DNA of 24,392 bases from a virus, in the IMG/VR virus record IMGVR_UViG_3300008259_000310, positions 1-24,392 of that record; one strand, written 5' to 3'. The notes below the pieces were generated by a model that made no database searches, was not told the DNA's origin, and saw only the letters and a program-made list of their open reading frames with translations. Shown one piece after another: positions 1 through 19,066 of the stretch. Position numbers and translations under genes: made by a program. Each line of letters opens with the position of its first letter. The stretch's first letter is position 1.

Positions 1-2
1 GT

Positions 3-725: not shown

Positions 726-728
726 ATA
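721..728 (+). promoter_or_regulatory. T4-type late promoter box GATAAATA before gp25
   Basis: The octamer GATAAATA differs in one base from the T4 late -10 consensus TATAAATA. It overlaps the TAA stop of the hub gene and lies exactly 5 nt before the ATG at 734. No Shine-Dalgarno sequence fits between, so the transcript should begin at or next to the start codon. The same box occurs before five other genes here. Confidence 0.72.
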
Positions 729-733
729 TCTAT

Positions 734-1111
734 ATGGCTATCATGTACAGAGGATTTTCTACTATAGGGCGCACACGCAAGTATCGCCTTACGGATTTTG
801 AACTAGTTAAGCAGGACTTGATCAATCATTTCTACATCCGCAAGGGTGAAAAGCTGATGAATCCTAATTTTGGTACTATTATCTGGAACGTAGTACATGA
901 ACCCCTAACAGAAGACCTAAAAAGCGTGATAATCTCAGATATCAAAGCCATAGCCGAATATGATCCTAGGATCAGCATAGACAATGTGGTGATCACTGAA
1001 TATGATCAAGGCATACAAGTAGAGCTACAATTACGCTATGTCCTAACAAATCAGACTAATTTACTAAATCTACAGTTTGATAATCAAAACAACACACTTA
1101 CCGCAGTTTAA
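734..1111 (+). CDS. 25: Baseplate wedge protein gp25 (GPW/gp25 family)
   Basis: This 125-residue protein has the length and layout of T4 gp25 (about 130 residues), the small wedge component that binds gp6 in the baseplate and is related to TssE of type VI secretion. Visible features are an N-terminal YRGFST, the motif YIRKGEKLMNPNFGT, and AEYDPRI near residues 75-80. The last occupies the place of the family EPR motif, here read as DPR. The C-terminal strand VELQLRYVLTNQ is also typical. The ATG at 734 is 5 nt after a late promoter box. A second in-frame ATG at 743 gives MYRGFST and could be the true start if transcription begins slightly downstream. The gene is followed by 52 nt holding another late promoter, then gp6, the usual partner. 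Confidence 0.9.
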   Translation: MAIMYRGFSTIGRTRKYRLTDFELVKQDLINHFYIRKGEKLMNPNFGTIIWNVVHEPLTEDLKSVIISDIKAIAEYDPRISIDNVVITEYDQGIQVELQLRYVLTNQTNLLNLQFDNQNNTLTAV

Positions 1112-1134
1112 TTAACTACCCAGTTTATTTTCCT

Positions 1135-1142
1135 GATAAATA
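1135..1142 (+). promoter_or_regulatory. T4-type late promoter box GATAAATA before gp6
   Basis: GATAAATA lies in the short gap between gp25 and gp6, 21 nt before the ATG at 1164. An AGGA at 1152-1155 is spaced 8 nt from the ATG, so this unit should have a short leader with a ribosome binding site, unlike the unit for gp25. Confidence 0.72.
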
Positions 1143-1163
1143 CATTATATTAGGAAACTATCA

Positions 1164-4100
1164 ATGGCTATTACCACAAGACAAAGCAGTTTACTAGTCG
1201 CAGAAGATTGGACTAAACTATATCAAACTTTCCGTAATGCGGATTTTCAAAGCTATGACTATGAAACCCTCCGCAAGAGCATGGTTGACTATCTCCGTGT
1301 GTATTATCCAGAAGATTTCAATGACTTCATCGAATCTAGTGAATTTATCGCTCTTATAGATCTTATAGCGTTCCTAGGACAAAGCCTTGCTTTCCGTGGC
1401 GATCTAAATGCCCGTGAAAATTTTATTGACACAGCGCAACGACGTGACAGCGTACTAAAACTAGCACGTTTAATCAGCTATAATCCTAAACGTAATATTC
1501 CTGCAAGTGGCTTATTAAAAGTTGATTCAGTCAGCACCACTGAAAATGTTTTTGATAGCAACGGATTAAATCTATCAGGATTAGTGATCAACTGGGCAGA
1601 TTCAGCGAACGACAACTGGACAGAACAATTTATCGCAGTGGTTAACGCTAGCCTTAACAGCAATCAGGCAGTAGGTAAACCCAGTAATAGCAAATTACTT
1701 AACGGTGTGACCACTGAAGAATATCAGATCAATCTAGTACCAAATCTTACAGCCACCTATCAGTTCAGTGCTGCAGTTGAAGGAAGCCAGATAGCGTTTG
1801 AAATAGTCAGCCCAACATCAACTGGTCAAAACTACTTGTATGAAGTAGCACCTAAACCTAACAGCAGTTTTAATCTATTGTATAGAAATGATAATCTAGG
1901 CAATGGCAGCAATAATACTGGATATTTCTTACACTTCAAACAAGGCGTACTACAGAGCATAGATGTCAACTTCCAAGAAAGCCTACCTAATCGCGTGTAC
2001 AGTTTGAATGTTAACAACATCAACAACACAGACGTGTGGGTATATAGCCTAGATAAAAATGGTAATTTAAGCACACAGTGGACGCCAGTCCCTAGTGTTG
2101 GTGCTACTAACGTTATCTACAACAAATCCACTAACAAGAATATCTATCAAGTGAATACTCGCGCAGGTGATCAGATTGATTTAATTTTTGGTGATGGCAG
2201 TTTTGCAAATATTCCACAAGGTCGTTTTAGGATCTACTATAGAGTCAGCAATGGTCTCAGCTACAAGATATCACCAGATGAACTCAGAGGCATAGTTATT
2301 CCTATAAACTATGTTAGCCGTACTGGCCGCACTGAAACTATTAATATACGTGCTAGCCTACGTTACACAGTTACTAATGCTACTACACGTGAAACAGTTG
2401 ATGATGTCCGTCAGAAAGCCCCTCAACAATACTATACACAGGATCGTATGGTCACAGGTGAAGACTATAACATCTTACCATACACACTATTCAATAATGT
2501 CTTAAAAGTTAAAGCAGTAAATCGTACCAGCAGTGGTGTAAGCCGTTATCTTGATGTGATCGATACCACAGGTAAGTATTCATCTACTAACATATTCTGC
2601 CAAGACGGTATGCTGTATCGTGATGATCCTATTCAATCATTTAATTTTAGTTTTAATACTACCAATGACATCTTCAGAGTGATCAATAATCAGGTCAAAT
2701 CACTCACATCAACTAAAGAGATGTTACAGTTTTTCTACAGCACTTATAATGCTATTAATGCAACTAACACCTACTGGAATAAATCATTAGATGACGCAGG
2801 TATCACAGGATATTTCTATGACAGCACAGATAATATTCTGCAGGTAGGTGATTTTGTAGCAGACAGCAAGAGATATATCAAACAAGGTAGTATAATTAAA
2901 TTTTCAGCTGGTACAGGAAATTATTTTGATGCACGTAACACCATACAGCCAGGAGTTCCATCTAACAGCGGAGACAAATATTTTATCTATGCGCAGGTAA
3001 TACAGGTTTTAGCAGATGGAACTAACGGTGGACAAGGTAATCTAGACAACGGCAGTGGACCTATAACTCTTAATCAAGTGGTACCTACTGGTGCAGAAGC
3101 TGTTAGAATATTCCCAGTATTTAATAATAATTTTACCGATGCACTTACAACCAACATAGTAGATTTCATCAGAGCCTTTAAAGATTTTGGTCTACGCTAT
3201 GACGTTAATAACAGTGAGTGGGTCATCATCCAACCTGAAGATCTAGATACGGGTGATTTCAGTTTAGCGTATACTGGTAATACCAGTGCAGCTGGTCTTG
3301 ATTCAAGTTGGCTTATCCGATTTCAAGCAGTGGGGCAGACCTATACAGTTTACTATCGTGGACTAGAATATGTGTTCGAAAGCGTTCTAGAAACTAATTT
3401 TTATTTCGATGATCGTGTTAAAATCTTTGATCCTAAGACTGGATTTACGATCAAAGATCAGATCAAAGTCTTAAAAGTAAATACCAATCCAGATGACACT
3501 AATTCATTGGCATTAGATTATGTTTGGCACATCTACGATAATATCGTAGAGGTAGATGGTTATGCTAACGCTAACAAAATTCTAGTAACGTTCCCTGACA
3601 GCAACGATGACGGTATTCCAGATAATCCAGAACTTTTTGAGTTACTAGTAAGTCCTGATACTAATTCAAATGCAAAATATGTCTACTTCCAAAATACTTT
3701 TGGATATGATAATTTTGTCATACAGACACCAGTAAGCAACAGCTTAGTAGTCAGCATCTATGAAACACTTACCGCCGCACAGATTGCCGCTACACTCTAT
3801 CAAGATGGACAATTATTCTATATACCACCAACTGATACATTCTATCAGTTATCTATCGCAAATGACTCAGTCTACACACTCGATGAGGTGACAGGATATA
3901 CTGCTAAGGTAGGTCGTCAAGATCTATACTTCCAATATAGACATAGCAGTCCGAACAATCGTCGTATCGATCCAAGTCCTAACAATATCGTGGATTTATA
4001 TATCCTAACCAAAGCTTACGCAACAGATTATCTAGCATGGATACAAGATACTACAAATACTGTAGAAGAACCCATTGCCCCTACTCCAGAGACACTTGGC

Positions 4101-4547
4101 ACAGACTACAGTGATCTAGAAAAATACAAGAGTATCAGTGACACTATAATTTATAATCCAGCAAAATTTAAACCTATCTTTGGTGATAAAGCAGAAGCAG
4201 CATTAAGAGCCACATTTAAGGTAGTTAAAAATGCCAGCGTAGTAGTCAGTGATAATGATGTTAAGACCAGTGTAATTGCAGCGATTAATACGTATTTTGA
4301 TATCGCTAATTGGGACTTTGGTGAAACATTTTATTTCAGTGAATTGTCAGCATATCTGCACAGTGTACTAGCACCAAACATAGCATCTGTTACTATAGTA
4401 CCAACTAGTACCAGTGAGACATTTGGTAGTCTGTTACAGATCAATGCAGAGTATAATGAAATCATTGTAAGTGCCGCTACAGTAGATAATGTGCAGATAA
4501 TCACTGCTATAACTGCCGCACAGTTGAATCAACCAGTAGTTGCATAA
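1164..4547 (+). CDS. 6: Baseplate wedge protein gp6-like, enlarged form
   Basis: The 1127-residue protein carries hallmarks of T4-like gp6, which forms the continuous wedge ring of the baseplate and pairs with gp25. The N-terminal ~110 residues (DYETLRKSMVDYLRVYYPEDF, FIALIDLIAFLGQSLAFRGDLNARENF, RLISYNPKRN) form the conserved helical start. The middle has the baseplate-J-like stretch around GDQIDLIFGDGSFANIPQGRFRIYYR, and the C-terminus (WDFGETFYFSELSAYLHSVL, then FGSLLQINAEYNEI) closes the family domain. T4 gp6 is 660 residues, so several hundred residues are extra. They lie mostly between about residues 450 and 950 and are beta-rich and Asn/Asp-rich. The ATG at 1164 has an AGGA ribosome binding site 8 nt upstream and a late promoter at 1135. 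The frame is intact, and the giant gene follows after 27 nt, probably on the same transcript since no late box precedes it. Confidence 0.86.
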   Translation: MAITTRQSSLLVAEDWTKLYQTFRNADFQSYDYETLRKSMVDYLRVYYPEDFNDFIESSEFIALIDLIAFLGQSLAFRGDLNARENFIDTAQRRDSVLKLARLISYNPKRNIPASGLLKVDSVSTTENVFDSNGLNLSGLVINWADSANDNWTEQFIAVVNASLNSNQAVGKPSNSKLLNGVTTEEYQINLVPNLTATYQFSAAVEGSQIAFEIVSPTSTGQNYLYEVAPKPNSSFNLLYRNDNLGNGSNNTGYFLHFKQGVLQSIDVNFQESLPNRVYSLNVNNINNTDVWVYSLDKNGNLSTQWTPVPSVGATNVIYNKSTNKNIYQVNTRAGDQIDLIFGDGSFANIPQGRFRIYYRVSNGLSYKISPDELRGIVIPINYVSRTGRTETINIRASLRYTVTNATTRETVDDVRQKAPQQYYTQDRMVTGEDYNILPYTLFNNVLKVKAVNRTSSGVSRYLDVIDTTGKYSSTNIFCQDGMLYRDDPIQSFNFSFNTTNDIFRVINNQVKSLTSTKEMLQFFYSTYNAINATNTYWNKSLDDAGITGYFYDSTDNILQVGDFVADSKRYIKQGSIIKFSAGTGNYFDARNTIQPGVPSNSGDKYFIYAQVIQVLADGTNGGQGNLDNGSGPITLNQVVPTGAEAVRIFPVFNNNFTDALTTNIVDFIRAFKDFGLRYDVNNSEWVIIQPEDLDTGDFSLAYTGNTSAAGLDSSWLIRFQAVGQTYTVYYRGLEYVFESVLETNFYFDDRVKIFDPKTGFTIKDQIKVLKVNTNPDDTNSLALDYVWHIYDNIVEVDGYANANKILVTFPDSNDDGIPDNPELFELLVSPDTNSNAKYVYFQNTFGYDNFVIQTPVSNSLVVSIYETLTAAQIAATLYQDGQLFYIPPTDTFYQLSIANDSVYTLDEVTGYTAKVGRQDLYFQYRHSSPNNRRIDPSPNNIVDLYILTKAYATDYLAWIQDTTNTVEEPIAPTPETLGTDYSDLEKYKSISDTIIYNPAKFKPIFGDKAEAALRATFKVVKNASVVVSDNDVKTSVIAAINTYFDIANWDFGETFYFSELSAYLHSVLAPNIASVTIVPTSTSETFGSLLQINAEYNEIIVSAATVDNVQIITAITAAQLNQPVVA

Positions 4548-4574
4548 TATTAGGATCAAACAAAAGAGAACATA

Positions 4575-5183
4575 ATGGCCGCAAGAAAAAGTATAAATTT
4601 ACTTCCTGGTGTATTTAGGACTGATGTCAATGACAAGTTCCTTACTGCTACCCTAGATCAACTAATTTCTGAACCTGAACTTAAAAATCTTTATGGGTAT
4701 ATCGGACGCAAGTTTGCTCCTACATACGTAGATGGTGACAGCTATATCACTGAAGGATCAGCTGATAGGCAAAATTATCAACTCGAACCGGCAACAGTAA
4801 TTACTGACACAGATAACAATACAACTTTCTTTGCCAGCTACATACATTTTCTTGACAAGATCAAATACTACGGTGGTCTTACAGATGATCACAGTAGATT
4901 ATTTGCAGGTGAATATTATTCTTATGATCCGAAGATCAGTTATGATAAGTTCGTAAATTTTGGCCAATACTATTGGCTACCAAATGGTCCAGCCGCAGTA
5001 CGGGTCAATACCAGCGGTGTAGAACTGGTCAAGACATTCCTGGTCACACGTAACGATAATCAAAACGTCTATGACTGTAAATCAATCGGCAGGGTTCTGG
5101 ATACAGTCAGAACTAGGTATAGACGGCCGATTAAACGCTGTTCCGACTATCAGCAGTCGCGATGTGTTGGGAGTAGAAAATAA
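4575..5183 (+). CDS. Giant structural protein, N-terminal fragment
   Basis: The frame gives 202 residues. The start MAARKSINLLPGVFRTDVN followed by KFLTATLDQLISEP and LYGYIGRKFAPTY is a conserved N-terminus of large structural proteins in T4-like marine phages, so the ATG at 4575 is trusted. Only a weak ribosome binding site (AGAGAA at 4565-4570) is seen, and no late box precedes it, which suggests co-transcription with gp6. Good family-like protein continues through YWLPNGPAAVRVNTSGVE and TFLVTRNDNQNVY, to about position 5072. Beyond that the frame turns into a Cys/Arg-rich tail (DCKSIGRVLDTVRTRYRRP) that looks like out-of-frame reading, while the real protein resumes in the next frame at 5071. 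This fragment would end mid-domain if translated as is. Confidence 0.75.
   Translation: MAARKSINLLPGVFRTDVNDKFLTATLDQLISEPELKNLYGYIGRKFAPTYVDGDSYITEGSADRQNYQLEPATVITDTDNNTTFFASYIHFLDKIKYYGGLTDDHSRLFAGEYYSYDPKISYDKFVNFGQYYWLPNGPAAVRVNTSGVELVKTFLVTRNDNQNVYDCKSIGRVLDTVRTRYRRPIKRCSDYQQSRCVGSRK
5023..5183 (+). other. Frameshift junction 1 in giant gene
   Basis: The upstream frame stops at 5183, and the downstream frame is open from 5023 (its previous stop is 5020-5022). Protein quality switches near 5066-5078, from NDNQNVY in the first frame to TVNQSAGFWIQ in the second, a +1 change. Related proteins, as I recall them, have about 20 more residues between these two motifs, so a deletion with net frame change is possible. 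No slippery site or stop codon at the switch suggests programmed frameshifting. Confidence 0.65.
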
Positions 5184-8100
5184 TGGTGCCTCATCCGGAA
5201 ATGTAGTATTCCGTGTACCACAGAAAAATGCGCAGGATCGTTTCCTTGCTATGGAGTTAGTGGCCACAGTTGATTTTGCAGTGCCATTAGCATATTCTAA
5301 ACTACAAAATAGATTGCTAAGTGATTTCGTCACTGACTATCCGCAATATGCAGGACTCACTGGTAGTCTAGACGGTAAAACTTTAATATTTGTTGATCAA
5401 CAGAATTTAACGAACTTCGGTGAAGAAGCATGGACTGTAGCTGGTGAAACTGACAGTATATCAATAGCCTATGATAGAGGTGATGTTGTAGCTACAGCAG
5501 ATCGTTATGGTATTTGGAAAATACAACTCATACCATCAGGCGATGATTATCTGGTTAACTGCTATCCATTTGCCTCTGTAGCTATAGATCAAAAGGTCTA
5601 TGTTAAATATGGATTGGTAAATGCCAATCAAGAGTTCTATAGAGACTTTACAGGTTTCTTTGAGCGTATGCCTTTGATTACCAGCACAGCAGATACGCTT
5701 TACATACAAGACGGTGATCGTAGCGACATCTATACAAAAATTAAGATCGTAGATTTCAATGATTTCACCATCGATGTTGATCAGGACATACTAGGTCAGG
5801 AGAATTATACAAGCCCTAATGGCGTAGAATTTACCAGTGGATTAAAAATACAGTTTGATACAGACGTAACTCCTGCGAGTTATCAAAATAATATCTATTA
5901 TGTTGAAAATGTAGGTGACAGTATCAGATTAGTTGATATTAGGCTATTAATTACACCAGAAGCATTCAATGACGAAATCGCTACTAATTATCCAATACAA
6001 CAGATAGTATTAGACTCTGTCACAACTGCAATAATACCCGGCGGCACGATAATAACCGTTGGTGGGATCGCTATCGAAACTAACACAGAGATAGCTGTTG
6101 GTTCTATAAAAATTACCACATTAGATTCTGTTGCGAATATCACTAAAGGTATGGCAGTTTCAGGAACAGGCATAGCCGCAGGCACTACGGTATATGATGC
6201 ATTTGCTGAAACAGTATTTCCTGACTATATCACCATCAAGCGAGATGCACTAGATTTGAATTCATGGGCCAGACATAATCGTTGGTTCCATGTTGACGTG
6301 ATCAGAGCCACAGCAGAATATAATGATGATGTTCTTATACTAGATCAAGGACTGCGTGCCCAAAGACCAATCGTGCAATTTGAAAGTGATCTACAATTAT
6401 TCAATCATGGACGTATTGGTAAGAAATTTATTGACATACTAGATACCAACATTACAGATGCTTTCAATCAACTTGAAGGTCAATTGGTAGATGATGGCGG
6501 AGCGATTACCTATAATACCGCGGTATTCCCTGCACAGGTTTTCTACGATGGAGTATTAGTCGGCACGACAGATACAGTTAGCTTTATAGGTGACGGTGCA
6601 TTCGGAGTGACACTATTTGATGGTATGCGTGTGCTGTTTGCCGCAGACAATGATCCATTGGTAAGAGATAAGATTTATGTAGTTAATCTTGTTCAGTTTG
6701 AGGTTGACGCTCTTGGTAGACCTACAGGTGCTAAACACATCAAACTAACAATAGCGGATGATGGTGATGCAGAAGAGTGGGATTCTGTAGTAGTTAAATT
6801 AGGAAGATACAAAGGCAGTGCTTGGTGGTACGATGGTTCACAATGGTTAGAAAGCCAACAGAAAACCAGCTTACAGCAGGATCCATTATTTGATGTTTAT
6901 GATAATGATGGTAGGAGTCTATCAGATACAGACTATTATCCACGCAGTACATTTGCGGGAACTAGAGTATTTGGCTATCAACGCAACACAAATGGTAGCG
7001 ATGATCCAGTTTTAAATTTTGCCTTGAGCTATAGAAGTTTCCAAAGCCAAGGTGACATATTGTTCTCAAACTATTTTAATACTGATACATTTGAATATGT
7101 TGTTGGGCAGACGACCTTTACTAAAAATATCAGCATAGGATTCTTGCAATCTATTGTCAATAGAACAATAATTAGTCCAAAAAATACTTGGCGCACTGTA
7201 GTAGAATCTAGCAGACAATATCAGATATTGAGTTTTGTTTATGACGGAACGAATAGTCCGTTTAAATTAGACATAACTCCAACAGCTCAAAATGTACACG
7301 GAACTACTAATACTATACCGTATGTGAAAGTCTACAAAAACAAAATTTATCTCACACAAGATCAGTGGACTATAAGCACAGATAATAAAATAACATTAGT
7401 CACTGAACCAGTCGAAGGTGACTTAATTGACGTAGAAGTCTATAGCTCAGAAGTAAGCCAACTTGGTTATTATCAAGTGCCATTAAACCTTGATCTCAAC
7501 GCACAGAACATTGATGTCACTGATCTTACTCTAGGACAGATAAGAAACCATTTGGTTGAATTAAGTAGGAATAGTACGAATCTAGACGGTGATGTTTTAG
7601 GTCCTTGCAATCTACGAGATATCGAAATAAAAGCACAAGGGGGTACTATCTTACAACATAGCGCACCACTACCTTATGCGGAATTATTTTTGCTAGATCC
7701 TCAAGCTAATTTTATAGACGCAGTCAAGTTAGCCCAACGCGAATACATTAAATTTAAAAACAAATTCCTAGAACTTAGTGCCAGCTTGTCAGGTATTGAC
7801 CCTGATGATCCTGTAGCCAGTGTAGATCTCATACTAGCACAGATAAATCTTAATAAGACTCCTAGCTCTCCATGGTTCTATAGTGATATGGTACCATATG
7901 GAACACTTAAAAATACCATAACCTATACTGTATTTGATCCATTGGTAATGAGTTATGAAATAACTTCAGTATTTTCATCTGTAACGTTAAGCAATCGGGC
8001 AGTATTAGTCTATTTGAATGACCAACAATTAATTTTAGGAATTGACTATACTTTTGACACAGACAGGCCTGCTATTACATTTAACGATCTTTCAATCGCT

Positions 8101-8403
8101 CTTGAGATAGATGATGTTATTACCATCGTTGAATACAGCAATACCGACGGTAGCTTCGTGCCTGAAACACCAAGTAAACTCGGAACATATCCTAAATTTA
8201 AACCAGAATTAGTCAGTGACGACACGTATAGAACAACAATCAATGTAGTGCGTGGTCACGACGGTAGTATTACGCCAGCGTTCAATGACTACAGAGATAA
8301 TTTCTTATTAGAACTAGAAAAACGTATCTATAATAATATCAAGTTACCAAATACTGGATCCTATAGAAATATTTACTGTCTATTATTCAAGATTTGTAGA
8401 TAG
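5071..8403 (+). CDS. Giant structural protein, second fragment (frame-shifted continuation)
   Basis: The 1110 residues continue the protein begun at 4575. The ATG at 5071 is inside a conserved motif (VNQSAGFWIQSE, as in phage YTFxVNQxGxxFWIQ modules) and has no ribosome binding site, so it is probably not a start. Recognisable blocks are PDYITIKRDALDLNSWARHN with NRWFHVDVI, GSAWWYDGSQWLESQQK with DPLFDVYDNDG, and DTFEYV. Carboxy-terminal modules of the type 'name a value, give its position, tail off in a beta hairpin' include YKNKIYLTQDQWTIS and LNDQQLILGIDYTF. Near the end PSKLGTYPKFKPELV, VRGHDGS and LLELEKRIYNNIK are typical of this giant family. After NNIKLPN the frame deteriorates and stops at 8403, while the continuation FTVYYSRFVDRIDGEYMPGSW is in the next frame. 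A segment near residues 300-380 (TKGMAVSGTGIAAGTTV) may be an inserted Gly-rich module. Confidence 0.72.
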   Translation: MTVNQSAGFWIQSELGIDGRLNAVPTISSRDVLGVENNGASSGNVVFRVPQKNAQDRFLAMELVATVDFAVPLAYSKLQNRLLSDFVTDYPQYAGLTGSLDGKTLIFVDQQNLTNFGEEAWTVAGETDSISIAYDRGDVVATADRYGIWKIQLIPSGDDYLVNCYPFASVAIDQKVYVKYGLVNANQEFYRDFTGFFERMPLITSTADTLYIQDGDRSDIYTKIKIVDFNDFTIDVDQDILGQENYTSPNGVEFTSGLKIQFDTDVTPASYQNNIYYVENVGDSIRLVDIRLLITPEAFNDEIATNYPIQQIVLDSVTTAIIPGGTIITVGGIAIETNTEIAVGSIKITTLDSVANITKGMAVSGTGIAAGTTVYDAFAETVFPDYITIKRDALDLNSWARHNRWFHVDVIRATAEYNDDVLILDQGLRAQRPIVQFESDLQLFNHGRIGKKFIDILDTNITDAFNQLEGQLVDDGGAITYNTAVFPAQVFYDGVLVGTTDTVSFIGDGAFGVTLFDGMRVLFAADNDPLVRDKIYVVNLVQFEVDALGRPTGAKHIKLTIADDGDAEEWDSVVVKLGRYKGSAWWYDGSQWLESQQKTSLQQDPLFDVYDNDGRSLSDTDYYPRSTFAGTRVFGYQRNTNGSDDPVLNFALSYRSFQSQGDILFSNYFNTDTFEYVVGQTTFTKNISIGFLQSIVNRTIISPKNTWRTVVESSRQYQILSFVYDGTNSPFKLDITPTAQNVHGTTNTIPYVKVYKNKIYLTQDQWTISTDNKITLVTEPVEGDLIDVEVYSSEVSQLGYYQVPLNLDLNAQNIDVTDLTLGQIRNHLVELSRNSTNLDGDVLGPCNLRDIEIKAQGGTILQHSAPLPYAELFLLDPQANFIDAVKLAQREYIKFKNKFLELSASLSGIDPDDPVASVDLILAQINLNKTPSSPWFYSDMVPYGTLKNTITYTVFDPLVMSYEITSVFSSVTLSNRAVLVYLNDQQLILGIDYTFDTDRPAITFNDLSIALEIDDVITIVEYSNTDGSFVPETPSKLGTYPKFKPELVSDDTYRTTINVVRGHDGSITPAFNDYRDNFLLELEKRIYNNIKLPNTGSYRNIYCLLFKICR
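8318..8403 (+). other. Frameshift junction 2 in giant gene
   Basis: Frame 1 stops at 8401-8403. Frame 2 is open from 8318, just after a TAG at 8315-8317, and already encodes IEIFTVYYSRFVDRIDGEY before the ATG at 8420. So the protein passes from frame 1 to frame 2 somewhere between about 8340 and 8375. From memory of relatives, roughly 50-100 residues normally lie between the RIYNNIK block and the FVDRxxGEYxPGSWR block. A deletion together with a frame change is therefore likely. Confidence 0.7.
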
Positions 8404-8419
8404 GATAGATGGCGAATAC

Positions 8420-11400
8420 ATGCCAGGCAGTTGGCGTGCGGTTTATGAATATTTCTATGATACTGTATATCCACATCAACGTCCTTGGGAAATGTTGGGA
8501 TTTACAACTAAGCCGGACTGGTGGGAAGATTGCTACGGCCCTGCTCCTTACACCGGCGGTAATAAACTCTTATGGAATGACCTTGAAGCAGGTCTGATAC
8601 GTTTTGGAGATCGTGCAGGTGTAGACAAAAACTATAGTCGTCCTGGATTAGCGACTATAATCCCTGTAGATGAAAACGGTATACTATTAAATCCAGCACA
8701 GGTCATAGCCAAAGCTACTAATGGCAAATATGCGGCCACATCATGGTCGGTAGGACAGCTGGGACCAGTTGAATGGGCATGGAGAACCAGCAGTGATTTT
8801 CCATTTGCAGTACAACAAGCTGTAGCAGTGGCTAAACCTGGCATGTACTTTGGACAATTCATTGATACCTATCAAGTTAGATATAACAGTGATCTTGAAC
8901 AATACCTAACATTAGAAAATCATCACATAAGACAAACAGACATTACATATAACGGTGATAATTCATCGGGCAGTGTGATCAGAAGTGCAGGATATTTAAA
9001 TTGGATAGCAGATTATCTACGTAGTTTAGGAATCAATCCAAGCACTAAAATCACCGCTATGTTAGAGAACTACAATGTAAAATTAGCCTATAAGATGGCA
9101 GGGTTCAGTGACAAGAAATATCTACAGATCCTTGCTGAACAAAGTAGTCCTACTAGCACAAATGCCAGTATCATGGTACCGGAAGAGAATTATGATGTGG
9201 TGTTGTATAAATCTACACCAGTAGACAAGATCACCTACAGTGCAGTGATATTAGAAAAAACTGACAATGGATTTACTGTAAGAGGGTATGATCTAAACAG
9301 TCCTTACTTTACTATCATACCAAGCATAGTTAATAATAATGCATATAAGATCACGGTTTTAAATAGTTCAGGTACTGTGTTTAATGACTATCAAAAAATA
9401 AAATTAACCGTGCCATACGGTTATGAATTCAAGAACAAACAACAGGTAGTTGATTTCTTGATCAGCTATGAACGATATCTCATAGCACAGGGATTTACTT
9501 TTAATGATCGCGACGGTGATCTAGGTGAGACACGCAATTTCAAACTATCAGTAAAAGAATTCTTGTTCTGGGCACAGCAAGGCTGGAAGACCGGTACACT
9601 ATTAGTCATGAGTCCTGTAACTAATTCTATCACATTAACTACGGTTGGTAACATAGTAGATGAAATCACAGATAGCCAACATGGCAGCAAGATCGTAGAT
9701 CAAAATTTCAATTTGGTTAGAAATACTGGATATCAGATACTACGTGGTCCTACAGGATTTAAGGTAACACTAGCAGATGATAATGTCCTCGGCTTAGTAG
9801 AACTTAATCTAGTACAATACGAACACGTGCTGACATTCGATAATACCACAGTATTCAATGACGTGATTTACAGACCAGAATTAGGTAACAGACAATTTAG
9901 ACTTAAACTTATAGGACAAAAAACAGATGCCTGGGATGGCAGCCTATATGCGCCAGGATTTGTTTATAACAGCGAAACTGTTCAAACATGGCAATCGGGC
10001 AGAGATTATCTCAAAGGCGAACTAGTATTATTTAAAGATCAATATTATGTAGCTTTAACTAATGTGCCAGCTGCTGTAGATTTTGACTTTAGCACATGGA
10101 AATTATTATCTTCAACAGAAATTAAAACTGGTCTATTACGTAATTTTTCTACTATTGCAGTAGGGTCACAGAGTTTTTATGACAGCTACAGTAACATCCG
10201 AGATAACGATCAATTGGCATACAGTCATGGATTAATAGGATTTAAACCTAGGCAGTATCTCAGCGATCTAGGTGTAAGCGATACTACACAGATTGAGTTT
10301 TACAAGGGTTATATAAAACAAAAAGGATCCACTAATGCTGTAGATTCCTTGACTAAAGCGAGATTTAATAATCTATCTGGTAATATTAGTTTGTACGAAG
10401 AATGGGCCGTACGCACAGGTGAGTATGGTGCACTTACTTCAAATCCTTACGTAGAGGTAGCACTAGATGAACGTGCATTCAGCGTGAACCCAGCTGTGGC
10501 TGAATTCGTAGACACGGGTGATAGCAATCTAGGTGATGGCGTAACTATTTTTAACAAGTCACAGTTATATAGATCTACAGATGCTTTTGATGGAAACATA
10601 GCTATCAATAGAGATGATTATAGTGATTATGACAACGACATTCTCACAGCAGGCTATGTAAATCTAGAAGATGTATCAACTACTATATTTGATATAACCA
10701 ATTACACAGAACTAAATGATCAACTCGCAGACATCGGTAATGGATATACTATCTGGTGTGCTAAAGATTTCTCTAGCAAATGGAATGTTTATAGGGTCAG
10801 CGAAACTGCCACTCAAATCACAACTTTAACTAATGCACTTGATGGATACATAACTTGGGCCACAGATCGACCTCATGGATTGGCGATAGATGATGTATTC
10901 TTGATTCGTGGATTTGATGACAACTTCGATGGATTCTATCAAGTCTACAGTGTGCTGGATCTCAACAGAGTTACAGTCATATATCAAGGAGATCCCGATA
11001 ATCTAAACGATCTCAATACCTTAACTGGTCAAGGTATCTTGTTTGTGCTCAAGAGTCTACGATTTAAATACATGGAAGATAGTAGAGTATTTGGACTTAC
11101 TAATCCACTCTATAGATGGCGTGTGGGTGAAAAGATCTGGATCGACGAAGATGCGGCCACTAATGCGGTTCAAGGTCAACCTTTTGATACTCCTAGTGGT
11201 GGGTGGAAGGTATATGAAAAAACTGAATCTTGGTCATACAATCAGACTCTGACTAAGTCCAGCGGCGAATATAAAGCCAATGATGGATTTGGAACTAGCG
11301 TTAAATTAAGCTACGATGGATTACTAGCAGTAGCAGGTAGTCCTTTTGCAAATAGCACTCCATATTACAGTGGCGGCGCTGAAGAAACCACAGGTCGTGT

Positions 11401-14400
11401 AAATACCTTTGACAAAAACTATGCAGGTGAATTTGTAAATGGATTTACTCTAATACCAGACGCTGGAAACGCTGCTATTACTAACAGAGAATTTGGTTAT
11501 AGTGTAGACCAAGCTATCGGTAAAGTAGCAATTGGGGCCCCTGGTAGCTATGGAAATGTTGGATTAGTCTATGTATATGATCGCGTAGAAGGCACAACAG
11601 ATTTCAGCAGACCAAGAATATTGTGGTCAGGTAATTCTATAAGCGGTGCAGGCGACAGATTTGGATCAAGTTTGGCGTTTGACGAAAATGGAACATGGTT
11701 GTATGTAGGTGCACCAGGAAATGATCGAGTATATGTTTATGGATTAAACAAATATGTACCATTCAGACAACAGATAGTATCAGTAAGTTCTAATGTTATT
11801 ACTGCGAATTTTATTCCAGAAGCGAGAAACACAGTCACCTCAATTAAAGTACATGGTGCTAACAGTTATTCGGCCGGAACAACAATTACTCTAAGTCCAA
11901 GCTTGGTAATAAACGGAATTACTGCCACAGCTAATATCAATTTTGTAACTCCTGCGGCAGGATCTCCAGGTAATGGTAACGTAAGTAGTATATCAATTAC
12001 CAATGCAGGAAGTGGATATGAATCAACACCAACTGTAACGTTTAACAAACCAGCTAATGTGATTGTTGACGGCTTTACAGCAATCTATGGTAATGTAGTC
12101 AAATTTTCATCAGGTGTGACTAGTGGCATTTATCCTGGTATGGTGGCTAATGTGTTCTTTACAGATACACATCTAGGTAATCCAACTCGTGTAGTTGCTG
12201 TAGATACAGTATCTGGCAATATCACCATGTCAATGGCAAACACTGCGGCAATAACCAGTCCTATAAGTTTTGGTGATGTAGGTAGATTAGGAAACATAGT
12301 AGTTGGTATAACTGGGGTGGCAGAATCATTACTAGTAACCAACTCTAATAGAGTTTTCATTCCGAACCTTGACTATACACTGAGTGGTAATAATATTGTG
12401 TTTACTGATACACCTGCAACTGATGTGTATGTGATAACACAACAACCATACTATGTTTTATCTAATATTATACAAGGTCCTGGCGGAAGTGATTTTGGTT
12501 ATAGTATGGACAGCAGTCTCGATGGAGCACAGCTAGGTGTAGGTGCACCTAGTGCAAATGTACTTGTTGGTAACACATGGATACAAGCCGCAGGCGCTGT
12601 GTATGTTTATGATAGAGTTATAGAAGCGTATGAGTCTACAGGTCTACTAGATTATACTACCACTGGTACTATCGATACTGTTCATAGAGTTCTTATAGAT
12701 AATATTGAAGTTACAAATTATACCATTCCAGGTGGAATTGGTTCTAACACTATAAGATTTATTAATCCTCCTCCTAACTATAATACAGGTGCTGTATGGA
12801 AATTCCACAATAAAGGTAGACTATATGGTACCAACTATGGGTTTACTACAAATCCAATTTTTACCCCAGGTGATACATTACGCTTAGATAACTTTGAAAT
12901 CACAGTACAAGGTCGCATGATGCCAACTACTGTTGATGTTGAAACTGCTGCTTCTACTCTAAGTATTCCATCAATATATGTTGGTGCTAATATATTGACA
13001 TTGAGCAGTAATATCGTAGCCAATGTTGGTCAAATGATCAGCCAAAATCTTGGTAGTGGATACTATGCTAATGTGGTAGTATTAGCTAACACTACTCCTA
13101 GCACTAGCAATATCATTGTTGGATCTAAATTTATCACAGTAGGTGGTAATATTAGGCTTGGTGGCTACATGACAGCTAATGTATTTAATTATGGTCCTGG
13201 CAATGTAGTTACTTTATATGCTAATATGGCAGCAGGCTATAGTGGTACAGTGACATCGGCATATCCAATGGCCAGCCTAGATAGCTTGATCAAAGATATC
13301 AATGATGCTGAATTATTAGGTATTAGTGCTGTTAATGAAAATAACAAATTAAGATTAAATTCTAATAGAACTGTAGCTAAAAATCTATTACGTATCTTAA
13401 CCGGTACTAACACCACAGGTAGCCAAGGGGTATATGCTGACGCCGGCATGATAGTATTTGCATTCATGCAGATTATTGTTAATCCATATAACACTCCTGG
13501 TGAATATTTTGGTAACAAGGTCGTTCTAGCTCAAAATGCCTACATGTTAGTTATCGGCAGTGAGCGAGGTACTACTAGATCATATACGACATTCGACACA
13601 GCCACTACCACACTGGACGTAGACAGTACTAGATTCTTTGATGCTGTTACTGGTAGTGGTAGCGTGTATATCTATGAGTTATATGATGATCCTCGTCCTG
13701 TGGTCGAAGATCCTGGACGTTATAGTTTTGCTCAGCAATTAAAAGTTCCTAATTTAGATCCTAATGATCCTGATGATGAATTGAATACTGGAGATAGATT
13801 TGGTGCTGCTATTGACATTATAGGTACAAACATCATAGTAAGTGCGATCAGTGACGATAAATCTTTAGCAGATGCTGGAAGTGTGTACATATTCTCTAAT
13901 CCTGCTATGACCCGTGGATGGAATCTCATACGCTATCAACAGGATAAAGTTGACGTTGATTCAGTGAATCGTATTTTCTTGTATAGTAATCTAACCAATA
14001 CGATCTTAACAAATCTAGAATTTATCGATCCAGCCAAAGGTAAGATTTTAGGCGTAGCAGATCAGGAAATTACTTATAAGACAGAATACGATCCTGCGGT
14101 TTATAACCGTGGTACCAATGCAAATACAGATTACTATTGGGGTGCTGAACAGGTCAATCAAGTATGGTGGAATCTCAATCAAGTACGATTCATTGATTAT
14201 GAACAAGGTAGTCTAACATATCGCAGTATCAATTGGGGACGATTATTCCCAGGTAGCATCATTGAAGTATGTGAGTGGGTTGAATCTACAGTATTGCCAA
14301 GCCAATACGTTGCGGCAGGTTTTGACGGCATACCTAAATATCAAGATAACAGCCAGTATGTTGAGATAATTCGTGTAGATCCAAATACCAACATTATTGG

Positions 14401-17400
14401 CAGCAGATACTATTTCTGGGTAACTAATAAGACCAGCCTAACTGGTAATGATCCTAAACGCACACTACCGATCCAATCTATAGCAAACTATATCAGTGAT
14501 CCTAAATCACAAGGTATTGCCTACGCTGCGATTATCAAGAAAGATGCTATTATACTTTATAATGTAGGCGATTACTTATCTGCGCAAAATACTATTCTGC
14601 GCTTAGACTATGACTTATTAAAAAATACCAATGTCATACACAGTGAATATGAGCTATTACAGAAATCAAATCCAGTCAGCATTGTTCCTGATAAAATCAG
14701 CAATAAGATGATAGACAGTCTGGCAGGAATTGATACATTAGGTCGAGTAGTCCCAGATCCAAGACTAAGTCTAGCAGATAGATATGGTATAGCCATAAGA
14801 CCAAGACAAAGTATGTTTATTGACCGCCTAAGAGCCATGAGCGATCTAATAGATTATGTCAATAGTGTGTTGATTACAAAACCTATAGCAAGACAATACG
14901 ATCTCTCGACACTTAGTGCAGAAGAAGATCAACCTAGTATCAAATTAGGTGAATATGATATCGCAGTGGCTACAGAAGAAGATCTAAATTACATCGATAC
15001 TACATTATTATCTACGGGATACAAAGTATTAGTAGAACAGAATACCGCACAGGATAATTTATGGAGTTTGCATGAATTACAGGCAGATAATTCTTGGGAT
15101 ATTGTAAGGATACAGAGTTATAAATCTAGCCTCTATTGGGAATATGTAGATTGGTATGCTGAAGGGTTCAGTGAAACTGAAGTTATCGAGTATGTGGTAG
15201 AAACACTTCCTGATGCACTTAAACTTCCAGTTGCAGTAGGTGACGAAGTATTAGTTAGAGTAAACAATACTACAGGTGGAGGTTGGAATCTATTAACAGT
15301 TCTTGATGACGGTAGTTTTAGCGTAGTAGGTATAGAGAATGGTACGATACAGCTAAAAACAAGCCTAAGTAACTTTGCTGATAACAGTATTGGTCTAGGT
15401 AATCAAGGATTTGATTCTAGTAGATTCGATCAAAGTCCTAATATCGAGATACGTTATATAATTGAAGCACTTAAGAATGATATTTTTATCGACGAACTTC
15501 AGGGAGAATACAATAAACTATTCTTTGTAATGATTAATTATCTATTCAGCGAACAGAAATATGTTGATTGGATATTCAAAACTAGTTTCGTCAGTGTTAC
15601 TCATCATTTGAGATCATTAATACAACCTGCTAATTATATTAAAGATAATATTACTTACTATGAAAATTACATAGAAGAAGTAAAACCTTATATTACTAAG
15701 ATCCGTGAGTACTTAACAAATTATAATGGCAATGATGCATTTGACGGTAGTATAACTGACTTTGATCTAGCACCATACTATGATCCAGATACTAAAATAT
15801 TCCGCAGTCCAGATGGTACTTTTGTTGAAAAAGATCGACAACTATGGGCCACTGGCTATTTGATATCAAATGGTGCATTGATCAATCAAGATTATCCGCA
15901 GTGGTATCAGAATAGAAACTTTTATGTCGATCAGATCATAATTACAAATCCTGGTAGAGGATATGCTGCAGAACCGACGATTACTATCACTGGTGGCGGA
16001 GCAAATGTACAAGCAACTGCTACAGCAGAAATAGATGGAGATACAGGTGCTATTACTAGCATAACTGTTTTAACATCAGGTAATGGATATTATCTAACAC
16101 CCACAGTAACAATAAATGGATCAGCTACTGAATCAGCTACTGCTTATGCTGTGCTTCGTAATGATCAACTTAGAACATTTGACACTACTATTAAATTTGA
16201 TCGTGTTAGTTATGGAACAACAGTTGAACAATGGTCCGCTAATACATTCTTCTTAGCTAATACTATCGTTAGTTATGGCGGACAAGGTTATAGAGTATTA
16301 TCTAATATAACTACTGGATCGACATTTATTACCAGTGACTATGTTCCGTATTCAGCTAATAACTTTAGCAATGCCAACGATCGTATTATGGCCTACTATG
16401 ATCCAACTAATACTATGCCCGCTAAAGATCTTAATCAATTGATCTATGGTGTAGAATATCCTGGAGTCAAAGTACAAGGTTTAGATTTCAATCAACAACC
16501 TGGATTCAGCGGAGAGATCCGTGCTAATATAACCTTTAATACAGCCATATCAGCCGCAGTAGGTGATGTTATCACGCAACCAGAAGCTGATGTGATATTA
16601 AATTTCAGTAATGTAATCACAGCTAATATTGGTCAGACTATCAGTCAGTATCAAGGTGCTGGCATTTATGCTAATGCTGTGGTTTACGGTAACACAATGG
16701 CAAATGGCGTCACACAAGGTCATATCACAAGTTCACTGACTGGTTATTTCCTCAAGACTACAGGATTCGCTTTCGATACCACAAATCAAATTAAGATCAA
16801 TAACGTGTCACAGTTCAGTAATGTATTTGTGGCTAATGCTAATGTAGCATTATCCTATTGGTCTAATCTCGCTATCAAACCGATATCATCTACGGTAGGT
16901 GGAATATCATCAATTGAGACTGCTGTGCCAGACGCTACTATTACAGTAACAAGAGTTTGGTCTTCTGCCAAGATCCAGGGCACTATTAACACGTCATCAG
17001 ATTTCCTAGTAGGCAACGTTGCCAACGCTAGCCTAAGAAATGGTAACATCAAAGTGGGTAGTACGTGGGTTACTGCTTATCCAATTAACGTCGATTATGT
17101 CAGCACCACAGCAGGAACACCATTTGATAGTGGCGACTATGATAACATCGACTATGATGAAGATGGTAATCCGATGCTGAGTGAAAACTCAATTGATACC
17201 ATTATCCGTAGCACATATCTAGATACAGCGTTAGGAACTCGACCAGAAGATATAGATGTCGATGGTGGTGCTTATGTTGACACGCACTCAAGCCATGCTC
17301 CAGAAGAACTAGTACCAGGTCGCACATATGATACCTTAGATATGATAGTCTATACTAAGATCAATAGTAATGCCAATGTCATAGCCTATAGGATATTTGA

Positions 17401-17878
17401 CAACATGGTAGACGATGTAAGCTATCTACGTGTGTCAGACTGTTATGCTACATATCTAACATCAACTCTGTCATTGAATGATGCTAACATATCAGTGGCT
17501 AATGCCGCGGCCTTAGCAACACCAAACGTTTCAACTAATACCCCGGGTGTTATATTCATAGGTTCAGAGCGTATTACCTATTGGACAGCTAACGCAGTAA
17601 CTAATACATTAGGACAGATACGTCGTGGTACACAAGGTACTGCGGCTGCTAATCTATATAGCGTAGGTACAAGGGTAGTCGACAGCAGTCTAAGACAGAT
17701 AGTACCAGGGTCAGCTCATGGTAATATTACACTAACAACATCTAATACCTATACAGTAACTAACACGATTAGCTACCAATGTTCTAGCACGTTATACAAC
17801 GATGACTTTACTATCATTAGGTGCAGGCAATCTTGCTATAAATGGAGCAAATGTTGGCGTTTACCCATTGACTGCTAA
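8420..17878 (+). CDS. Giant structural protein, third and largest fragment, with FG-GAP beta-propeller
   Basis: This 3152-residue frame is really open from 8318; the ATG at 8420 falls inside GEYMPGSWR and has no ribosome binding site. Domains in order: residues 1-60 YFYDTVYPHQRPWEMLGF, PDWWEDCYGPAPYTGGN; ~955-1100 three FG-GAP blades (DGFGTSVKLS, REFGYSV..VAIGAPG, DRFGSSLAF..VGAPG); ~1193 a GxGY repeat; ~1356 a fourth blade (DFGYSMDSS..VGAPS); ~1529 module ANVGQMISQ; ~1693 and ~1791 further blades (EYFGNKV, DRFGAAID); ~2420 IEEVKPYITKIREYL; ~2507 and ~2549 two GxGYxxxPTVTI repeats; ~2640 NANDRIMAYYDPTN; ~2730 module ANIGQTISQ; ~2940 LGTRPEDIDVDGGAYVDTHS; ~3040 GVIFIGSERITYW. FG-GAP repeats form integrin-like propellers that often bind ligands, so adhesion or a structural role is plausible. 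The last ~30 residues (CSSTLYNDD to CWRLPIDC) look out of frame, with continuation at 17802. Confidence 0.78.
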   Translation: MPGSWRAVYEYFYDTVYPHQRPWEMLGFTTKPDWWEDCYGPAPYTGGNKLLWNDLEAGLIRFGDRAGVDKNYSRPGLATIIPVDENGILLNPAQVIAKATNGKYAATSWSVGQLGPVEWAWRTSSDFPFAVQQAVAVAKPGMYFGQFIDTYQVRYNSDLEQYLTLENHHIRQTDITYNGDNSSGSVIRSAGYLNWIADYLRSLGINPSTKITAMLENYNVKLAYKMAGFSDKKYLQILAEQSSPTSTNASIMVPEENYDVVLYKSTPVDKITYSAVILEKTDNGFTVRGYDLNSPYFTIIPSIVNNNAYKITVLNSSGTVFNDYQKIKLTVPYGYEFKNKQQVVDFLISYERYLIAQGFTFNDRDGDLGETRNFKLSVKEFLFWAQQGWKTGTLLVMSPVTNSITLTTVGNIVDEITDSQHGSKIVDQNFNLVRNTGYQILRGPTGFKVTLADDNVLGLVELNLVQYEHVLTFDNTTVFNDVIYRPELGNRQFRLKLIGQKTDAWDGSLYAPGFVYNSETVQTWQSGRDYLKGELVLFKDQYYVALTNVPAAVDFDFSTWKLLSSTEIKTGLLRNFSTIAVGSQSFYDSYSNIRDNDQLAYSHGLIGFKPRQYLSDLGVSDTTQIEFYKGYIKQKGSTNAVDSLTKARFNNLSGNISLYEEWAVRTGEYGALTSNPYVEVALDERAFSVNPAVAEFVDTGDSNLGDGVTIFNKSQLYRSTDAFDGNIAINRDDYSDYDNDILTAGYVNLEDVSTTIFDITNYTELNDQLADIGNGYTIWCAKDFSSKWNVYRVSETATQITTLTNALDGYITWATDRPHGLAIDDVFLIRGFDDNFDGFYQVYSVLDLNRVTVIYQGDPDNLNDLNTLTGQGILFVLKSLRFKYMEDSRVFGLTNPLYRWRVGEKIWIDEDAATNAVQGQPFDTPSGGWKVYEKTESWSYNQTLTKSSGEYKANDGFGTSVKLSYDGLLAVAGSPFANSTPYYSGGAEETTGRVNTFDKNYAGEFVNGFTLIPDAGNAAITNREFGYSVDQAIGKVAIGAPGSYGNVGLVYVYDRVEGTTDFSRPRILWSGNSISGAGDRFGSSLAFDENGTWLYVGAPGNDRVYVYGLNKYVPFRQQIVSVSSNVITANFIPEARNTVTSIKVHGANSYSAGTTITLSPSLVINGITATANINFVTPAAGSPGNGNVSSISITNAGSGYESTPTVTFNKPANVIVDGFTAIYGNVVKFSSGVTSGIYPGMVANVFFTDTHLGNPTRVVAVDTVSGNITMSMANTAAITSPISFGDVGRLGNIVVGITGVAESLLVTNSNRVFIPNLDYTLSGNNIVFTDTPATDVYVITQQPYYVLSNIIQGPGGSDFGYSMDSSLDGAQLGVGAPSANVLVGNTWIQAAGAVYVYDRVIEAYESTGLLDYTTTGTIDTVHRVLIDNIEVTNYTIPGGIGSNTIRFINPPPNYNTGAVWKFHNKGRLYGTNYGFTTNPIFTPGDTLRLDNFEITVQGRMMPTTVDVETAASTLSIPSIYVGANILTLSSNIVANVGQMISQNLGSGYYANVVVLANTTPSTSNIIVGSKFITVGGNIRLGGYMTANVFNYGPGNVVTLYANMAAGYSGTVTSAYPMASLDSLIKDINDAELLGISAVNENNKLRLNSNRTVAKNLLRILTGTNTTGSQGVYADAGMIVFAFMQIIVNPYNTPGEYFGNKVVLAQNAYMLVIGSERGTTRSYTTFDTATTTLDVDSTRFFDAVTGSGSVYIYELYDDPRPVVEDPGRYSFAQQLKVPNLDPNDPDDELNTGDRFGAAIDIIGTNIIVSAISDDKSLADAGSVYIFSNPAMTRGWNLIRYQQDKVDVDSVNRIFLYSNLTNTILTNLEFIDPAKGKILGVADQEITYKTEYDPAVYNRGTNANTDYYWGAEQVNQVWWNLNQVRFIDYEQGSLTYRSINWGRLFPGSIIEVCEWVESTVLPSQYVAAGFDGIPKYQDNSQYVEIIRVDPNTNIIGSRYYFWVTNKTSLTGNDPKRTLPIQSIANYISDPKSQGIAYAAIIKKDAIILYNVGDYLSAQNTILRLDYDLLKNTNVIHSEYELLQKSNPVSIVPDKISNKMIDSLAGIDTLGRVVPDPRLSLADRYGIAIRPRQSMFIDRLRAMSDLIDYVNSVLITKPIARQYDLSTLSAEEDQPSIKLGEYDIAVATEEDLNYIDTTLLSTGYKVLVEQNTAQDNLWSLHELQADNSWDIVRIQSYKSSLYWEYVDWYAEGFSETEVIEYVVETLPDALKLPVAVGDEVLVRVNNTTGGGWNLLTVLDDGSFSVVGIENGTIQLKTSLSNFADNSIGLGNQGFDSSRFDQSPNIEIRYIIEALKNDIFIDELQGEYNKLFFVMINYLFSEQKYVDWIFKTSFVSVTHHLRSLIQPANYIKDNITYYENYIEEVKPYITKIREYLTNYNGNDAFDGSITDFDLAPYYDPDTKIFRSPDGTFVEKDRQLWATGYLISNGALINQDYPQWYQNRNFYVDQIIITNPGRGYAAEPTITITGGGANVQATATAEIDGDTGAITSITVLTSGNGYYLTPTVTINGSATESATAYAVLRNDQLRTFDTTIKFDRVSYGTTVEQWSANTFFLANTIVSYGGQGYRVLSNITTGSTFITSDYVPYSANNFSNANDRIMAYYDPTNTMPAKDLNQLIYGVEYPGVKVQGLDFNQQPGFSGEIRANITFNTAISAAVGDVITQPEADVILNFSNVITANIGQTISQYQGAGIYANAVVYGNTMANGVTQGHITSSLTGYFLKTTGFAFDTTNQIKINNVSQFSNVFVANANVALSYWSNLAIKPISSTVGGISSIETAVPDATITVTRVWSSAKIQGTINTSSDFLVGNVANASLRNGNIKVGSTWVTAYPINVDYVSTTAGTPFDSGDYDNIDYDEDGNPMLSENSIDTIIRSTYLDTALGTRPEDIDVDGGAYVDTHSSHAPEELVPGRTYDTLDMIVYTKINSNANVIAYRIFDNMVDDVSYLRVSDCYATYLTSTLSLNDANISVANAAALATPNVSTNTPGVIFIGSERITYWTANAVTNTLGQIRRGTQGTAAANLYSVGTRVVDSSLRQIVPGSAHGNITLTTSNTYTVTNTISYQCSSTLYNDDFTIIRCRQSCYKWSKCWRLPIDC
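17760..17878 (+). other. Frameshift junction 3 in giant gene
   Basis: Frame 2 ends at 17876-17878 after a Cys/Arg/Lys-rich tail unlike the rest of the protein. Frame 0 is open from 17760 (stop at 17757-17759) and gives credible beta-type sequence from about LSLGAGNLAINGANVGVYPL. The switch lies roughly between 17780 and 17815, again in the +1 sense. Confidence 0.65.
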
Positions 17879-18233
17879 TGTTAATCCAGTGATCACATCT
17901 AACCTAGCTGTGAATGGTACTTACCGTGGTGTTTACCCACTTGCTAAAGAACAAGCCGGCTATAATGTTAATATAGTAGCTGGAGGTGGTAATGTTACAG
18001 TAGGTAGTGATAATGTACTGATCACAGCAAATATTTGGTATAATGCTGGAAGTGGTGTGGCCGCAGATGGTACAGGGTTTGATGGTGCGACTACTACGGC
18101 CGTGAATTTCTTGAAAGAATGTTATGCAGATAATTTACTAGTAGCTCTGATACCTGATCTATTGATCACTGAAGATGCGATAAATACATTAACCACAGAA
18201 AGTGGAGATCAAATAAGTGAGGAAGATTTTTAA
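17802..18233 (+). CDS. Giant structural protein, C-terminal fragment
   Basis: The 143 residues are the likely C-terminus of the giant protein. The ATG at 17802 has no ribosome binding site and overlaps the previous frame by 77 nt, so it is probably internal. An internal duplication is visible: NLAINGANVGVYPL is followed about 25 residues later by NLAVNGTYRGVYPL. The end reads LLITEDAINTLTTESGDQI, like the acidic ITEDG..LTTE..I tails found at the ends of many T4-like marine structural proteins, which supports 18233 as a true stop. The final codons contain a late promoter box (18179-18186) and the ribosome binding site of the next gene, and the stop overlaps the next ATG (TAATG). The function is structural by context only. 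Confidence 0.68.
   Translation: MTLLSLGAGNLAINGANVGVYPLTANVNPVITSNLAVNGTYRGVYPLAKEQAGYNVNIVAGGGNVTVGSDNVLITANIWYNAGSGVAADGTGFDGATTTAVNFLKECYADNLLVALIPDLLITEDAINTLTTESGDQISEEDF
18179..18186 (+). promoter_or_regulatory. T4-type late promoter box GATAAATA inside end of giant gene
   Basis: GATAAATA is embedded in coding sequence 46 nt before the ATG at 18233. A transcript starting from it would carry a leader of about 40 nt including GAGGAAG at 18219-18225, a strong Shine-Dalgarno sequence 7 nt from the start. It would allow the fibre gene to be expressed apart from the very long upstream gene. Confidence 0.65.
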
Positions 18234-19066
18234 TGTCTACGATTAAGATTACCAATTTAACTAGCTCAGGAGCCATAGTAGGTAACGTAGTGTTACCTGT
18301 TGTTGGAAATGTTGCTGGTACGCTAACTACACTTAAAGCTACCGTAGATCAACTTAAGACTTTTATCACAGCCAGTGCTGAAGCAAATATACTAGCGGCT
18401 AATACCGCAACAATATTTGCTAACACCAACATGAAGTTATATGTTGATGGTCAGATCTCAGCAGCCAACGCAGGTGTAACATCTGCTAACTTAGGTATGA
18501 AGGGCTATGTTGACAGTGTAGCAAACCAATCAATATATGGAAATGCTAACGTAGCGTCTTATCTGACTACAGAAAATTACGCTAAAATATCTGATGTTAA
18601 CATAGCTAACACATCATTAAAATCGTATGTTGATGGACAAATCTCAGCAGCCAACGCAGGCGTAACTTCAGCTAATCTAGGTATGATCGGTTATGTAGAC
18701 AATAAAGTCACAACTGCTAACATAGGTATGTTAGGATATGTTGATAGTCGTATCGTAGTGGCCAATGCAGGAGTAACTTCTGCTAACATTGGTATGAAAG
18801 GATATGTTGATAATCAAACTTACAGTAATGTGCAGACTTTGGCATTTTTACTCACCAACCTTCCAGGATATGAAGGAAATATTGGATTAAATGTCAATGT
18901 CACTGATGGCACGGTCACTGCAAACAGCTTTGTTGGCAATGGTAGTCAGCTAACTGGTATAGCCTATACCATGGGCAATGTCACCCATTGGACAAGTAAT
19001 GTAACTACTATATCTGCGGCACTAGATCAACTAGCTGAACGTATATATAATATTGAAAATCCATAA
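18233..19066 (+). CDS. Tail fibre-like structural protein with 25-residue repeats
   Basis: The 277-residue protein begins MSTIKITNLTSSGAIVGNVVLPVV, followed by a TLTTLKATVDQLKTF segment. This is the N-terminus used by many T4-like phage fibre or short-fibre proteins for attachment to the particle. Residues ~70-195 contain three 25-residue repeats (YVDGQISAANAGVTSANLGM.GYVD) and a shorter 15-residue variant, probably forming a trimeric shaft. The C-terminal part has VTANSFVGNGSQLTGI, a motif of fibre tips, and ends with a short heptad-like helix ISAALDQLAERIYNIEN. The start has a strong GAGGAAG ribosome binding site and overlaps the stop of the giant gene. It may be a proximal fibre or whisker-type component; the exact role cannot be assigned. 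Confidence 0.68.
   Translation: MSTIKITNLTSSGAIVGNVVLPVVGNVAGTLTTLKATVDQLKTFITASAEANILAANTATIFANTNMKLYVDGQISAANAGVTSANLGMKGYVDSVANQSIYGNANVASYLTTENYAKISDVNIANTSLKSYVDGQISAANAGVTSANLGMIGYVDNKVTTANIGMLGYVDSRIVVANAGVTSANIGMKGYVDNQTYSNVQTLAFLLTNLPGYEGNIGLNVNVTDGTVTANSFVGNGSQLTGIAYTMGNVTHWTSNVTTISAALDQLAERIYNIENP
18441..18811 (+). repeat. Three 74-nt imperfect repeats within the fibre gene
   Basis: Copies lie at 18441-18514, 18627-18700 and 18738-18811, each 74 nt and in the same codon phase. They encode YVDGQISAANAGVTSANLGM-type units that start and end with YVD. Copies 1 and 2 are closest, sharing the stretch ATCTCAGCAGCCAACGCAGG; copy 3 is more diverged. Between copies 2 and 3 a short unit (NKVTTANIGMLGYVD) looks like a deleted copy. 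Such in-frame repeats can expand or contract and change fibre length. Confidence 0.8.

Follow-up and report, generated by a model that had tools for sequence, protein, structure and literature searches.

Unmarked sequence losses, very probably assembly or scaffolding faults, divide one giant structural gene of a large phage into four apparent reading frames

The window analyzed here, bases 1-24392 of the 40,645-bp viral record IMGVR_UViG_3300008259_000310 (24,392 nucleotides in all), carries a tail/baseplate module, as indicated by profile matches and gene position. Downstream of the wedge genes, four open reading frames (ORFs) follow one another at 4575-5183 (frame 0), 5071-8403 (frame 1), 8420-17878 (frame 2), and 17802-18233 (frame 0), in agreement with the original prediction of a 0, 1, 2, 0 succession over 4575-18233. 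The features referred to in the text are listed below; L numbers denote loci of related contigs used for comparison, except that L070 is given as a second coordinate system for the record.

3-725: hub/lysozyme-like gene (phrog_27932 match)
From 734: gp25-like wedge gene, upstream of the giant gene
1164-4547: gp6-like wedge gene (phrog_10646/219)
4575..5074, + strand: piece 1, N-terminal; matches phrog_10938 positions 19-156; collinear with L002/L003
5074..5075, + strand: junction 1; lacks 65 bp of the coding sequence, and the joined ends share 1 bp
5075..8382, + strand: piece 2; phrog_10938 match; 0 mismatches to L002/L003 over 5075-8384
8382..8384, + strand: junction 2; lacks 149 bp of the coding sequence, and the joined ends share 3 bp
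8385..12772, + strand: piece 3, first part; collinear with L002, with no indels up to 12671
12772..12774, + strand: junction 4; about 183 bp absent at 12773, frame kept
12774..17776, + strand: piece 3, second part; collinear with L010/L071 at 79% DNA identity
17775..17776, + strand: junction 3; lacks about 257 bp, and the joined ends share 2 bp
17777..18233, + strand: piece 4, C-terminal, with the true stop; in L010, L016, L028, L039, and L068 it belongs to the same ORF, in frame
18233-19066: repeat-bearing gene (internal MKGYVD / SAANAGVTSANLGM units), directly after the giant gene
24392, no strand: last base before a run of 37 Ns (record 24393-24429, equal to L070:2394-2430)

The gp6-like gene and the genes adjoining the giant gene occur in the same order as in relatives. 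The next gene begins at 18233, where the giant gene ends, and the length of this repeat-bearing gene differs among relatives. Further downstream, the genes at 19768-21150 and 21186-22631 resemble each other (about 40% in cross-hits via relatives), which suggests a tandem duplication of a tail-region gene. Just beyond the tail module, at record positions 26799-36131, lie four radical-SAM enzymes recognized by Pfam matches, two of them with SPASM-like N-terminal matches, and a fifth radical-SAM-like protein at L070:10585, identified by its similarity to a neighbor (L070 positions of the set: 4800, 7241, 9279, 10585, and 12816). They are accompanied by a carbamoyltransferase and, by eye, by SGNH-hydrolase-like and glycosyltransferase-like proteins. 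Parts of this gene set are common to many large phage contigs, and its products may modify a structure on the virion or host surface.

The four ORFs belong to one gene, as originally proposed. Pieces 1, 2, and 3 match consecutive parts of phrog_10938 (E values of 4e-31, 1e-77, and 1e-205), a virion structural protein family of 3324 positions filed under head and packaging; compared with this family, the ORF of the window lacks four blocks and is interrupted three times. Piece 4 has no PHROG match of its own, and its membership follows from relatives, where it continues the same ORF as pieces 1 to 3. A scan of piece 2 against IMG/VR gave 68 relatives, and all 68 encode one uninterrupted ORF as far as their contigs run, of up to about 4,640 codons, which in several of them ends only at the contig end. 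In every one of these relatives, pieces 1, 2, and 3, and piece 4 where the contig reaches that far, lie in the same frame. In the record of the window, by contrast with this single ORF downstream of the gp6-like gene, the frame is broken three times by missing DNA. The true start is the ATG at 4575, preceded by an AAAGAGA that resembles a ribosome binding site, while the ATG at 5071, called as the start of the second ORF, is not a real one. Inspection by eye bore out the absence of start signals between the pieces: 4575 and most neighboring genes have AGGA- or AAGAGA-like motifs upstream, and no convincing Shine-Dalgarno sequence was found before 5071, 8420, or 17802. Separate genes for the four pieces, the arrangement in relatives that the original prediction had named as refuting it, were looked for in the 68 relatives, and the opposite was found in all of them. 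A protein made in parts is not supported.

PA5oct-like Pseudomonas phages and Agrobacterium phage Atu_ph07 encode distant homologues that are annotated as virion structural proteins. The giant protein has an FG-GAP repeat match and a subthreshold match to a carbohydrate-binding module, and no solved structure is recognizably related to it by sequence, the one weak match being 2csi (E = 0.02). From this content and the position of the gene, the intact product is probably a giant baseplate- or fiber-associated protein.

What had been described as +1 frame changes turned out to be missing blocks, 65 bp long at junction 1, 149 bp at junction 2, and about 257 bp at junction 3, together with a fourth, in-frame loss of about 183 bp at junction 4; these lengths rule out single-base indels. 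Junctions 1 and 2 could be compared to near-identical contigs, L002 (from 3300031951) and L003 (from 3300032050), each of which carries both the 65 bp at junction 1 and the 149 bp at junction 2. Junctions 3 and 4 are covered by more distant relatives only: DNA alignment shows about 257 bp more at 17775/17776 in L010/L071 (about 80% DNA identity), and the alignment with L010 also shows the in-frame loss at junction 4. Across relatives, where counts refer to loci and not to independent phages and some loci from different scans share contigs, extra sequence was found at junction 1 in 67 of 67 measurable relatives (66 of these have 65, 68, or 71 bp), at junction 2 in 201 of 201 (140 to 164 bp), and at junction 4 in 89 of 89 (at least 144 bp, exactly 183 in 66). 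At junction 3, 31 of the 40 relatives measured have 257 to 263 bp more; among the other nine, five gave negative spacings, with matches out of order, and four gave 473 to 485 bp.

The missing blocks are coding sequence, conserved to the same degree as the remainder of the protein: of the 72 residues that junctions 1 and 2 have cost the protein, ten relatives share 13 without variation, compared with 18% protein-wide, and nine of these invariant residues fall in the stretch lost at junction 2. Modulo 3, the lost lengths leave 2, 2, 0, and 2. Because only one of the four lengths is divisible by three, the reading frame seems to step through 0, 1, 2, and 0, and because the loss at junction 4 keeps the frame, it is invisible to frame analysis. 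The agreement in sense among the three shifts had been read as a process acting on this locus; three frame-changing losses would agree by chance with a probability of 1/4, and with the fourth loss included the agreement loses its meaning. The process is not directional.

The break sites lie close to where they had been expected, except that the second, at 8382-8384, falls just outside the proposed 8335-8380. They do not coincide with low-complexity beta-repeat DNA, as had been supposed, since no direct or inverted repeats of at least 12 bp occur within 100 bp of any junction. Retained and lost ends align no better than expected by chance, with one marginal exception in four tests (0.06). Collapse of repeats at the joins is thereby ruled out, and given that only 1 to 3 bp are shared, the joins were not made by k-mer overlap. 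Among 2.9 million viral contigs, no other contains the junction string of J1 or of J3, and those of J2 and J4 are absent from all 353 fetched loci.

Outside the losses, the window closely follows intact genes in other assemblies. It is identical to L002/L003 over 1164-4816 and 5075-8384, with zero substitutions in gp6 and over the latter stretch, and L003 is 99.9% identical to it over 8385-11356. In piece 3, 23 of the 28 codons that differ from L002 differ synonymously. No substitutions, stops, or other indels accompany the four large losses, and decay of the gene is rejected in view of this absence of substitutions in gp6 and piece 2 and by the mostly synonymous differences in piece 3. Five mismatches cluster at 4817-5002, directly before junction 1, suggesting that the strain represented in the assembly changes there. 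Over 1-5074 there are 88 mismatches to L002, mostly within 1-1163, and a further 26 are found at 11389-12340, beside identical blocks; these divergent blocks may reflect mosaic strains produced by recombination, or an assembly of mixed strains.

The run of 37 Ns that follows the window end identifies the record as a scaffold. At this gap, relatives show 86 bp, so that the gap is 49 bp too short (exactly 49 in 30 of 37 relatives); those agreeing on 86 bp include relatives 72 to 86% identical on both sides. The assembly thus shortened at least one gap. The gap falls inside a small gene starting at 23978, which is also misrepresented. With the gap as the fifth defect, and the only one outside the giant gene, the defects are spaced 3.3, 4.4, 5.0, and 6.6 kb apart. 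In the remaining 16 kb of the record (24.7-40.6 kb), a comparison of 16 ORFs revealed no missing internal segment.

In sum, sequence is missing from the record, every relative has an intact gene, and at least one scaffold join is mis-sized. We are highly confident that the four breaks are scaffolding or local assembly faults for which no Ns were written. The original prediction had named assembly faults, deletions, and decay as possible causes; the first is the best cause, the blocks are indeed deleted with respect to the true gene, and decay found no support. Assembly fault is favored because kilobase-identical intact copies sit in two other assemblies, because the record has a mis-sized N gap, because the spacing of the defects fits a chain of short contigs, because there is no sign of decay, and because the junction strings were found nowhere else in the sequences searched. 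At junctions 1 and 2, independent assemblies (L002 and L003) disagree with the record at the joins, as an assembly artefact predicts. Contig pieces flanking uncovered or strain-variable sequence would have been joined by the assembler or scaffolder, with joins that omit 65, 149, 183, and 257 bp and no Ns inserted. The real locus would then be ordinary: in a large tailed phage, the baseplate wedge genes (gp25-like and gp6-like) would be followed by an intact giant structural gene, which in the nearest long relatives has about 4,600 codons. Metagenome assemblers are documented to make local assembly errors that not a single read supports and through which wrong protein-coding genes enter public databases (Chen et al. 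2020, PMC7111523). Those errors resemble the present ones in giving wrong protein-coding sequence at within-scaffold joins, here with one mis-sized N gap, but their diagnostic sign is missing read support, whereas the present case is known from sequence comparison. For the exact failure mode, we found only general accounts in the literature.

Several observations speak against such a fault. Ns are written at only one of the five defects, and the joins share 1 to 3 bp, whereas a k-mer assembler needs a long overlap, so that either a scaffolder butt-joined the ends or there are reads that contain these junctions. The microhomologies of 1, 3, and 2 bp at J1, J2, and J3 would also suit illegitimate recombination or chimeric library molecules. 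Moreover, all four unmarked losses lie in one gene that makes up 34% of the record, which by our arithmetic would happen by chance in about 1.3% of cases if they were independent. Clean joins of this kind, without Ns and confined to one gene, are what would be expected if a defective or helper-dependent genome in the sample had lost four blocks by illegitimate recombination at 1- to 3-bp homologies. We consider such real deletions unlikely, given that the J1 and J3 joins are found in no other public viral contig, that intact versions kilobase-identical to the window come from two other samples, that four large losses stand without accompanying substitutions, stops, or other indels, and that a scaffold gap of the wrong size occurs in this record too. 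It is somewhat less likely still that a phage in the sampled population not only bears all four losses but also reproduces with its giant tail/baseplate-region protein in fragments, as a variant that is tail-less or depends on a helper. The joins are most likely artefactual rather than real deletions.

Short microhomology at joins is typical of library chimeras, and chimeric molecules formed by amplification or template switching (or by reverse transcription, if the sample was a metatranscriptome) might have supplied deletion reads that were used where true coverage was thin. A chimeric read would have to prevail independently at four sites of a single contig, however, and we give this explanation only a slight chance. 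That one gene shows three shifts of the same sense might recall natural splitting of a gene into four proteins, or readthrough by means of programmed +1 frameshifting, yet DNA is missing rather than merely shifted, no relative is split, pieces 2 to 4 have no plausible ribosome binding sites before them, and the fourth loss keeps the frame. Either possibility is very improbable for this record. As a general property of the family, a natural split is refuted, since no relative encodes the pieces separately and they have no start signals of their own; programmed +1 ribosomal frameshifting is rejected likewise, as each site lacks 65 to 257 bp of conserved coding DNA and relatives have no shift. 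Lengths of 65 to 257 bp would be possible for small inserts, but introns or mobile elements present in relatives and absent here have practically no probability: the blocks are in-frame coding sequence with invariant residues, found at J1, J2, and J4 in every relative that could be measured, which refutes this reading, and a structured-RNA search found no RNA family in the window.

The four-piece split is therefore most likely not a real feature, and a fault at the scaffold level would here be mimicking biology, with gene callers recording four proteins from one very long gene. It was exposed by a check against near-identical contigs, and relatives also exposed the in-frame loss, to which any analysis of frames is blind. 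This calls for caution with claims of split or frameshifted giant phage genes that are based on single metagenome records.
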